Source of the DNA: Acinetobacter harbinensis
Lineage (GTDB): Bacteria > Pseudomonadota > Gammaproteobacteria > Pseudomonadales > Moraxellaceae
Direction: 5' to 3'
Assembly (NCBI RefSeq): GCF_000816495.1
Contig: NZ_JXBK01000001.1
Coordinates: 1,101,400 to 1,165,399 of the forward strand
DNA length: 64,000 bases
Numbering within the stretch: the first letter of the stretch is position 1; the number at the start of each line of letters is the position of its first letter. This document shows positions 26,728-41,698 of this stretch, in pieces. The translations under genes were made by a program, and so were the position numbers. The notes beneath the pieces were generated by a model that worked only from the letters and a program-made list of their open reading frames with translations, was not told the origin of the DNA and ran no database searches.

Positions 26728-27681
26728 TTATAGATAACTATCGAACATTGCGCTAATAGATTCTTCGTTGTTAATACGACGAATTGTTTCGGCAACCATA
26801 CTGGCCACTGAAACTTGGCGAATCTTGCCAATTTCTAATGCTTCTTGAGAAAGTGGAATAGTATCTGTCACGACCAATTCATCGAGTACAGAATTTTTCA
26901 AATTCTCTAGTGCTTTACCAGAAAGTACAGGGTGTGTTGCATAAGCAACGACACGGCGAGCACCGAATTGTTTCAATGCTTCAGCAGCTTTACACAAAGT
27001 ACCGGCAGTATCGACCATGTCATCCACAATCACACAATCACGATCTTTGACATCACCAATCAAATGCATCACTTGTGATTCATTCGCTTTTTGACGACGT
27101 TTATCAATGATTGCAAGATCGATATCACCCATTTGTTTAGCCACAGCGCGCGCACGTACTACACCGCCAACGTCAGGAGAAACAACCATAAGATTATGGT
27201 GTTGCTGTTGACGTAAATCAGCAAGTAACGCAGGAGTACCGTAGATATTGTCTACAGGAATATCGAAGAAACCTTGGATTTGGTCAGCATGAAGGTCGAT
27301 CATCACAACGCGGTCAATTCCTACCGTTGTAAGCATATCTGCTACAACTTTGGCAGTAATGGGCACGCGGCTTGAACGAGGACGACGATCTTGACGAGCA
27401 TATCCGAAGTAAGGGATGACAGCAGTAATACGACCTGCACTTGCACGACGTAATGCATCAGCCATAACGAGGACTTCCATAAGGTTGTCATTCGTTGGTG
27501 CACAAGTTGGCTGAACAAGAAATACGTCTTTACCACGAACATTTTCAGTAATTTCGACAGCAATTTCACCGTCAGAAAAATGACCTACAGATGCTGCACC
27601 TAAAGGAATGTGCAGGTGGCTTACAACTTTTTGAGCGAATTGTGGATGTGCGGTTCCACTAAAAACGACAAGATTGGGCAT
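26728..27681 (-). CDS. prs: Ribose-phosphate pyrophosphokinase (PRPP synthetase)
   Basis: Makes PRPP from ribose 5-phosphate and ATP for nucleotide, His and Trp synthesis. The ATG at 27681 gives [19 protein letters not shown] and 317 residues. [14 protein letters not shown] and the PRPP loop [13 protein letters not shown] are intact. The frame stays open 32 codons upstream, but that stretch overlaps a tRNA gene and is not coding. AAGGG lies six nt before the ATG. The gene starts only 35 nt after the CCA end of the last tRNA-Gln, so it depends on read-through of the tRNA array. Confidence 0.97.
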
Positions 27682-27716
27682 GAAGCACCCTTGGCGGTTG
27701 GAATGTTTGGAATAGA

Positions 27717-27791
27717 TGGTAGGGGCGGCTGGATTCGAACCAACGGATGCCGAGATCAAAACCCGGTGCCTTACCACTTGGCGACGCCCCT
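27717..27791 (-). tRNA. tRNA-Gln(TTG), copy nearest prs
   Basis: 75 nt with encoded CCA. The acceptor stem AGGGGCG / CGCCCCT is perfectly paired, the anticodon loop is TTTTGAT (anticodon TTG) and the T loop is TTCGAAT. This is variant A of the six-copy array. Confidence 0.96.
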
Positions 27792-27882
27792 AATGCGGCA
27801 GAACTTTAATATTTTTAATGCTCTATGTCAAGGTATATTAACAAATCAAGCCTTAAAATTTGTTCTATCTTTTTTGAGAAAA

Positions 27883-27957
27883 TGGCAGGGGTAGCTGGAT
27901 TCGAACCAACGGATGCCGAGATCAAAACCCGGTGCCTTACCACTTGGCGATACCCCT
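27883..27957 (-). tRNA. tRNA-Gln(TTG), variant B
   Basis: 75 nt with encoded CCA. The acceptor stem AGGGGTA / TACCCCT is perfectly paired and the discriminator is G. The anticodon arm is the same as in variant A. Confidence 0.96.
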
Positions 27958-27998
27958 AAATTTGATCACTGTAATTTTTACTTAAACACTTGTTTAAA

Positions 27999-28073
27999 TG
28001 GCAGGGGTAGCTGGATTCGAACCAACGGATGCCGAGATCAAAACCCGGTGCCTTACCACTTGGCGATACCCCT
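27999..28073 (-). tRNA. tRNA-Gln(TTG), variant B, second copy
   Basis: Same 75-nt gene as at 27883-27957, with a 41-nt spacer on either side that is also duplicated. Confidence 0.96.
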
Positions 28074-28114
28074 AAATTTGATCACTGTAATTTTTACTTA
28101 AACTCTTGTTTAAA

Positions 28115-28189
28115 TGGCAGGGGAAGCTGGATTCGAACCAACGGATGCCGGGATCAAAACCCGGTGCCTTGCCACTTGGCGACGCCCCT
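28115..28189 (-). tRNA. tRNA-Gln(TTG), chimeric copy with mispaired acceptor stem
   Basis: 75 nt. The 5' acceptor strand is AGGGGCG (variant A) but the 3' strand is TTCCCCT, closest to variant B with one change. That leaves a C-U mismatch and a G-U pair at the base of the stem. Two further changes sit in the D and anticodon arms; the anticodon stem CCGGG/CCCGG is fully paired and the anticodon is still TTG. It may be poorly functional or decaying. Confidence 0.85.
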
Positions 28190-28280
28190 AATGCGGCAGA
28201 ACTTTAATATTTTTAATGCTCTATGTCAGGGTATATTAACAAATCAAGCCTTAAAATTTGTTCTATCTTTTTTGAGAAAA

Positions 28281-28355
28281 TGGCAGGGGTAGCTGGATTC
28301 GAACCAACGGATGCCGAGATCAAAACCCGGTGCCTTACCACTTGGCGATACCCCT
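28281..28355 (-). tRNA. tRNA-Gln(TTG), variant B, third copy
   Basis: 75 nt with encoded CCA and the TACCCCT/AGGGGTA acceptor stem. It is preceded on the plus map by a 91-nt spacer almost identical to the one at 27792-27882. Confidence 0.96.
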
Positions 28356-28381
28356 AATACAGTAATCTACAGATGTAATAA

Positions 28382-28456
28382 TGGTAGGGGCGGCTGGATT
28401 CGAACCAACGGATGCCGAGATCAAAACCCGGTGCCTTACCACTTGGCGACGCCCCT
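28382..28456 (-). tRNA. tRNA-Gln(TTG), copy nearest ispE
   Basis: 75 nt with encoded CCA, variant A acceptor stem. Its 5' end lies one nt after the TGA stop of ispE, so the RNA must be cut out of the ispE mRNA. Confidence 0.96.
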
Positions 28457-28457
28457 A

Positions 28458-29288
28458 TCACATAACTTGTAAATGACGTAATGGTGATTCATCTAGACTA
28501 TTAACCAAGTAAGCTTTACAAGGTGAATGGGCTAAAATCTCATCAATTTTCATATTACGCGTTACTTCAGCAAAAACACAAGCACCTGTACCTGTAAGTT
28601 TTGCAGTCCCAAATTGATTGAGATACTGCAGAGCTTCATTTACTTCTGGATATAAACTTGCCGCCAAAGCGGTAAAATTATTTCCAAAGTTAAAAGGCTT
28701 TAACTGATAGGCGCAAAATGTAGATGGCTTCGTGTTTCTTGTCAATGTTTTTTGTGAAAAAAGCAATTGAGTGCTGATAAAACAGTCAGGTTTTAGCACA
28801 ATGTATTGTTTTTGATCTAAGTCTATGAATGTTAATTGTTCACCAATGCCTTCTGCCCATGCATTGCGGCCATATACAAAAACCGGCACATCCGCGCCAA
28901 GTTGTAGCCCTAATACTGCCAACTGTTCAGTAGTTAACCCACATTGCCACAGTTGATTGACCACAATTAAGGTACTGGCGGCATTAGATGAGCCGCCGCC
29001 GAGTCCTGCACCCATTGGAATATTCTTTTCTATAGCAATGAGCAGTCCGCTTATTTTCTGTGCGTAGGGCTTTAACAGGTTGATGGCTTTGTAGATCAGA
29101 TTGTGCTCTAAATCGACGCTGTCTAACCCCGCAATTGAAATATCTAAATCTACTGTTTGGGTGAATTGCAACCAGTCGGTTAAATCAATCAATTGAAAGA
29201 TACTTTGCAATTCATGGTAGCCGTCCTCACGACGACCAGTGATATGCAAAAACAGATTAAGCTTGGCAGGAGAGGGAACACGGATCAT
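28458..29288 (-). CDS. ispE: 4-diphosphocytidyl-2-C-methyl-D-erythritol kinase
   Basis: GHMP kinase of the MEP isoprenoid pathway. The 276-residue protein starts MIRVPSPAKLNLFLHITGRREDGYHEL, where Lys9-type and His-type residues bind substrate. The ATP loop NIPMGAGLGGGSSNAAS and the C-terminal LTGTGACVFAEV motif are clear. It lies between lolB (21 nt upstream) and the tRNA-Gln array, the order known from Pseudomonas (lolB-ispE-tRNA-Gln-prs). The other MEP enzyme genes are not in this window. Confidence 0.97.
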   Translation of the reverse strand: MIRVPSPAKLNLFLHITGRREDGYHELQSIFQLIDLTDWLQFTQTVDLDISIAGLDSVDLEHNLIYKAINLLKPYAQKISGLLIAIEKNIPMGAGLGGGSSNAASTLIVVNQLWQCGLTTEQLAVLGLQLGADVPVFVYGRNAWAEGIGEQLTFIDLDQKQYIVLKPDCFISTQLLFSQKTLTRNTKPSTFCAYQLKPFNFGNNFTALAASLYPEVNEALQYLNQFGTAKLTGTGACVFAEVTRNMKIDEILAHSPCKAYLVNSLDESPLRHLQVM

Positions 29289-40570: not shown

Positions 40571-40647
40571 GGCTATGTAGCTCAGCTGGTTAGAGCACAG
40601 CACTCATAATGCTGGGGTCACAGGTTCAAATCCCGTCATAGCCACCA
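40571..40647 (+). tRNA. tRNA-Met(CAT), first copy
   Basis: 77 nt with encoded CCA. Acceptor stem GGCTATG / CATAGCC, anticodon loop CTCATAA with CAT, T loop TTCAAAT. It is an elongator-type tRNA-Met rather than fMet because position 1-72 is paired (G-C). Confidence 0.95.
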
Positions 40648-41621: not shown

Positions 41622-41698
41622 GGCTATGTAGCTCAGCTGGTTAGAGCACAGCACTCATAATGCTGGGGTCACAGGTTCAAATCCCGTCATAGCCACCA
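41622..41698 (+). tRNA. tRNA-Met(CAT), second copy
   Basis: 77 nt, identical to the gene at 40571-40647, including the CCA. Confidence 0.95.

Follow-up and report, generated by a model that had tools for sequence, protein, structure and literature searches.

The six tandem tRNA-Gln(TTG) genes that lie between ispE and prs in Acinetobacter harbinensis are best read as a four-gene array, of the plan usual in the genus, that was enlarged by unequal exchange between mispaired tRNA genes. According to this reading, the array is the sole tRNA-Gln source of the genome, its long spacer is a promoter, exchanges between tRNA genes would have turned the spacer order a-b-c into a-c-b-b-c, and the block inserted along the way is redundant. 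Taken as a whole, we consider this explanation quite probable, and its individual parts are held with the differing strengths given below.

Array layout. Within the window, by which we mean the whole 64,000-nt stretch of DNA that was analysed, ARAGORN identified six minus-strand tRNA-Gln(TTG) genes spanning positions 27717 to 28456, which is exactly the interval to which a previous reading of the same DNA, made from the letters alone (the sequence-only reading), had assigned them. These same-direction genes, separated by spacers of 26 to 91 nt, form a tandem tRNA array and are referred to here in transcription order as T1 (28382–28456), T2 (28281–28355), T3 (28115–28189), T4 (27999–28073), T5 (27883–27957) and T6 (27717–27791). 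The intervening spacers are 26 (28356–28381), 91 (28190–28280), 41 (28074–28114), 41 (27958–27998) and 91 (27792–27882) nt long, respectively. The upstream neighbour of T1 is ispE (28458–29288, minus strand), recognised from its open reading frame and its IspE relatives, and the TGA stop codon of this gene ends 1 nt ahead of T1. Downstream, on the same strand, lies a ribose-phosphate pyrophosphokinase gene (26728–27681) which, from its sequence and the gene order, we take to be prs. The listed open reading frame of prs begins earlier, within T6; we took the ATG at 27681, 35 nt past T6, as the start codon, and the same ATG context recurs in relatives. The proposal that the tRNA genes sit inside a protein operon fits this arrangement, which suggests that one transcript probably covers ispE, the array and prs and would then be processed to release the tRNAs.

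Two gene types and a chimera. Comparison of the six genes bore out the plus-strand order A-B-B-chimera-B-A that had been described for them; in transcription order, T1 is of type A, T2 of type B, T3 a chimera, T4 and T5 of type B, and T6 of type A. T1 and T6 are the same in sequence, as are T2, T4 and T5. The two types differ at five of 75 letters, four of which (6, 7, 65 and 66) lie at the inner end of the acceptor stem, while the fifth (72) is the discriminator, which is A73 in the type A genes of the window and G73 in those of type B. T3 has an A-type 5' end (A letters at 6 and 7) and B letters at 65 and 72 (hence G73), along with three further changes that are absent from its five sister genes. 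Two of these are unique among the 417 genes of the 107 gap-free arrays surveyed below, while the third (C39) occurs in 16 of the 417, T3 included. T3 is also the only one of the 417 with an unpaired acceptor position, a C-U mismatch at pair 6-67 next to a G-U pair, when G-U pairs are allowed in the stem. It is still called by ARAGORN and folds into a cloverleaf-like form, and energies of single-tRNA folds do not discriminate between the genes, since type A does not adopt a cloverleaf as its minimum-energy fold and the energy of T3 falls between those of A and B. We also considered the A73 discriminator as a sign of decay and rejected this idea, as both copies carry A73 in other Moraxellaceae genera (L185, L193–L195, L211 and L212).

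Repeated spacers and proposed block duplication. A single position distinguishes the two 91-nt spacers, and the same holds for the two 41-nt spacers, in agreement with the sequence-only reading. The duplication extends beyond the spacers: the 247-nt block at 27713–27959 is 97% identical to that at 28111–28357, far beyond chance. The sole difference between the 91-nt copies falls on the first base of a -35-like box, which reads CTGACA in the internal copy between T2 and T3 (28224–28229, followed by a -10-like TAAAGT at 28201–28206) and TTGACA in the copy at the usual place, just ahead of T6 and prs (27826–27831, with TAAAGT at 27803–27808 and then the conserved TCTGCCGCATT up to T6). The 26-nt spacer has related sequence in the first position of the arrays of the closest relatives. 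The 41-nt spacer opens with an inverted repeat (TTTAAAC, 4 nt, GTTTAA), the arms of which are the same in nine of ten close relatives compared, with a loop of about 5 nt; this element perhaps has a role in processing.

The array as tRNA-Gln source. A search of the whole genome (2.90 Mb in 6 contigs) with one copy returned six full matches, which are the array, plus three short weak matches. A CUG-type tRNA-Gln pattern, with at most two mismatches allowed, matched the six genes and ten other two-mismatch sites; taken together rather than site by site, none of the ten was read as a tRNA, and no CUG-anticodon tRNA-Gln was recognised. While a one-gene search and a CUG-type pattern could miss a very dissimilar tRNA-Gln, the array appears to be the sole tRNA-Gln source of this genome. 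For scale, glutamine accounts for 5.67% of the 13,781 codons in 33 long open reading frames of the window, with 573 CAA and 209 CAG. Elsewhere in the window, ARAGORN called two plus-strand tRNA-Met (CAT) genes (40571–40647 and 41622–41698), about 1 kb apart.

The long spacer as a putative promoter. A consensus scan of the window region alone found 5 promoter-like sites against a shuffle mean of 5.9, which is no excess, and the evidence for a promoter is therefore comparative. Long spacers in the genus typically end in TTGACA, 17 nt, TAAAGT and TCTGCCGCATT, directly followed by the tRNA. Of the 106 long spacers in the genus, 104 carry the pattern TTGACA-N16-18-TA.A.T, the exceptions being the internal copy of the window and one spacer of locus L181, while TTGACA was found in none of 204 short spacers. 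Resampled sequences match the promoter pattern at a rate of 0.0013. Across 86 distinct spacers, picked by their common 11-nt end, the frequency of the top base was 0.998 (-35 box) and 0.98 (-10 box), compared to 0.71 between the boxes and 0.60 upstream of them. The feature extends to other Moraxellaceae genera, where TTGACA-N16-18-TA...T occurs in the spacer before the last tRNA at 16 of 20 two-gene loci; the loci that lack it (L196–L198 and L201) all belong to one genus. With conserved -35 and -10 boxes 16 to 18 nt apart, the 91-nt spacer very probably serves the last tRNA and prs as a sigma-70-type promoter, and the G+C-rich letters after its -10 box recall those of stringently controlled tRNA promoters. 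The single -35 base change in the internal copy could be chance. On this reading of the spacer, the expansion very probably duplicated the putative promoter of the last tRNA and prs as well. The location of this element inside the tRNA array means that exchange between tRNA genes would reshuffle promoters as well as tRNA copies, and we raise as a speculative suggestion that such exchange tunes tRNA-Gln supply and PRPP synthase expression jointly, as a dosage module.

Array size and order across the genus. Among the matches listed there were 195 Acinetobacter ispE loci (some genomes being represented twice), 192 of them with tRNA-Gln. These came from stretches of 110 of the 149 matched genomes among those listed, from 7 more, and from 63 named loci and others; four genomes in which the match ran to a contig end (G001, G016, G040 and G124) were left out. 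Merging loci by identical 150-nt upstream flanks gave 127, with the longest array per flank kept, a choice that leans to higher counts. Setting aside 14 arrays that contain N gaps and 6 truncated by a contig end left 107 gap-free arrays. The sequence-only reading had suggested that copy number may differ between strains; at the level of the genus, the counts are mostly four with a range of one to seven: one gene in 2 arrays, two in 2, three in 10, four in 88, five in 2, six in 2 and seven in 1. The spacers run short-short-long in 87 of the 107 arrays, and the last spacer is the long one in 102. All copies within an array are identical at nt 8–64 in 97 of 105 multi-gene arrays, while A and B ends are mixed in 23 of the 107.

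Assembly quality bears on these counts. Four genes were present in 42 of 50 gap-free arrays from genomes of at most 10 contigs, a hand-made list of 58 loci of which 8 have N gaps, and in 12 of 12 from single-contig genomes; that list leaves out L230 of G112 (4 genes) and G127 (array split over two contigs), and the single-contig genomes G076, G082 and G093 are absent from it. Several low gene counts coincide with N gaps or contig ends, so that part of the apparent copy-number variation is an assembly effect. Four gap-free arrays have no long spacer (L055 with 2 genes, L059 and L178 with 1 each, and L245 with 3), which may reflect either loss or assembly collapse.

Overall, the Acinetobacter array is old and fairly stable, with the usual plan T1-short-T2-short-T3-long-T4-prs. 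The arrays were not found to be the same in every strain and devoid of spacer homology, the pattern that the sequence-only reading had named as contrary to its account. Several departures from the plan were seen. L101 has a duplicated promoter spacer (spacers of 29, 85 and 85 nt), both copies of which are identical with TTGACA intact; in L013, which has seven genes, the promoter spacer is the third and is followed by four genes; and L149, with six genes, contains three identical spacers of 28 nt. That the window genome, L101 and L013 represent different settings of a dosage module of the kind suggested above is likewise a tentative idea, which we think doubtful. In 51 of the 107 gap-free arrays, the two opening bases of the first tRNA gene also belong to the ispE stop codon, and excision of the tRNA would therefore remove the stop codon of the ispE mRNA.

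Origin of the array and the probable route from four to six genes. Outside the Moraxellaceae, 17 ispE loci comprised 10 with exactly one tRNA-Gln and 7 with none, while 27 loci of other Moraxellaceae genera comprised 7 with one tRNA-Gln (L183, L184, L186, L188 and L203–L205, from four genera) and 20 with two. A progression from a single older gene to two, and then to four in Acinetobacter, is plausible from these counts. The earlier suggestion that an ancestral single gene was amplified therefore holds in part: an older single gene is plausible (10 of 17 and 7 of 27 loci), but the recent step was from four to six rather than from one to six, because arrays of the genus usually hold four (88 of 107 arrays, and 12 of 12 in single-contig genomes). 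In other families of the order, G259, G297, G328, G293 and G333 show regularly spaced tRNA-Gln-like starts in runs of three to five, which suggests further tandem arrays there.

If the genus spacers are denoted a-b-c, those of the window read a-c-b-b-c. We modelled each event as a crossover within tRNA genes that fuses the left-hand portion of one array to the right-hand portion of another. The shortest path within a lineage then takes three exchanges (abc, abbc, abbcbbc, acbbc), and two rounds are enough when different alleles come together. By either route T3 is a junction gene, a match with its chimeric sequence that was noted after the fact. Thus two or three exchanges between mispaired tRNA genes would yield the a-c-b-b-c order, six genes and the second promoter copy, and one exchange inside a tRNA gene would yield the A/B chimera. 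The repeated spacers, the derivable order and the chimera at a junction gene make block duplication by unequal exchange, as first proposed from the sequence, the best reading of the array, with gene conversion a possible source of the chimera.

Other possible histories of the array. We think it unlikely that the present order arose by gene conversion, or through natural transformation that replaced the array with that of another Acinetobacter, instead of by unequal exchange within the lineage. The likeness of copies within arrays (97 of 105), the mixing of A and B ends (23 of 107) and the need of the two-round route for two different alleles to meet are all consistent with such events, and conversion could have produced the chimera. 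On the other hand, conversion alone does not explain the gain of two genes and two spacers, the spacers of the window resemble those that its closest relatives have at the corresponding positions, and neither 91-nt sequence of the window was found in any other array compared. That an assembler expanded a four-gene array to six is improbable. Arrays of this type do break assemblies, as the 14 arrays with N gaps and the 6 that end at a contig end among the 127 flanks attest, together with the four further matches that ran to a contig end, and the window genome is itself in 6 contigs. However, there are no Ns in the array, and false expansion normally leaves identical copies, whereas here the repeated spacers differ and T3 has changes of its own; a derivable order with a chimera at the junction would be an odd product of an artefact. 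Moreover, the clearest artefact-like case in the survey is one of loss, in which L050 has 1 gene while L042, with the same upstream flank, has 4. Finally, T3 could have been kept as a working variant, for example as a regulatory tRNA that is charged poorly or matures slowly, and it does retain its anticodon loop and CCA end, with an anticodon stem that pairs throughout, but this we regard as highly improbable, given an acceptor-stem mismatch unique among 417 genes, the altered -35 box of the promoter copy ahead of it and the absence of the gene from every other array compared.

Returning to expansion by unequal exchange, the mispaired acceptor stem of T3 and the loss of the first -35 base from the promoter copy indicate that the inserted block comprising the two is probably redundant and under relaxed selection, although the changes are few. 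Five intact-looking tRNA-Gln genes would then be left. In this respect the array appears to display both the birth and a likely decay step of a tRNA gene, with the scar of the exchange still readable.

Acceptor-pair identity. The genes of the array do not carry the full identity set of E. coli-type GlnRS (U1-A72, G2-C71, G3-C70 and G73): all six have A1-U72, and four of the six have G73. This is general in the genus, where 699 of 699 genes of 75 nt (repeated genomes included) have A at position 1 and the facing T, and A1-U72 was also present in every other Moraxellaceae locus examined. We rejected the notion that A1-U72 is specific to the Moraxellaceae, as A1 is shared by several other families of the order, in which only position 1 was seen. 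GlnRS is present in the genome and scored above the cut-off in 56 of 61 Moraxellaceae genomes. The parts of PMC3927822 consulted state that the U1-A72 pair is absolutely conserved, and the Moraxellaceae genes do not fit this statement, because A1-U72 genes coexist here with GlnRS. GatB is present as well, and no match to AsnRS reached the cut-off in our search, so that GatCAB probably serves tRNA-Asn. Amidotransferases rely on U1-A72, according to the part of PMC9976931 consulted, and a tRNA-Gln lacking this pair may accordingly be outside the reach of GatCAB.

Implications and comparison with known systems. These observations suggest that the spacer of a tRNA array can double as a conserved promoter, and that changes in copy number can thereby bring regulatory changes for prs. 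They also indicate that draft Acinetobacter assemblies can understate the number of tRNA-Gln genes. At the level of titles and the beginnings of abstracts, we found no literature on the layout or promoter of this array.

Mixed tRNA-protein operons with stringently controlled tRNA promoters are exemplified by tyrT and thrU-tufB of E. coli. The array appears to resemble these in that tRNA genes lie beside a protein gene of the same direction and a G+C-rich stretch follows the -10 box. It differs in that the promoter-like spacer lies within the tRNA array and was itself duplicated.

Tandem duplication has been described as a source of new bacterial tRNA genes for serTGA of Pseudomonas fluorescens (PMC7661048), and, as far as the sections consulted go, the likeness to the present array is that existing tRNA genes gain copies in this way. 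The serTGA duplications, however, span 45 to 290 kb and, by the same sections, compensated for gene deletion in laboratory evolution, whereas the exchanges proposed here would have taken place between neighbouring tRNA genes within 740 bp and with no known selection. A close precedent is the report by Vallenet and others (2008; PMC2265553), which gives 2 tRNA-Gln copies in A. baumannii SDF, 4 in AYE and 5 in A. baylyi; this concerns the same tRNA and the same genus, and the portions consulted provide counts only, without layout, spacers, promoter or mechanism. The reshaping of a tandem tRNA array by unequal exchange and differences in copy number (2008) are thus known phenomena, to which this array adds a promoter-like spacer and a junction gene that looks damaged.
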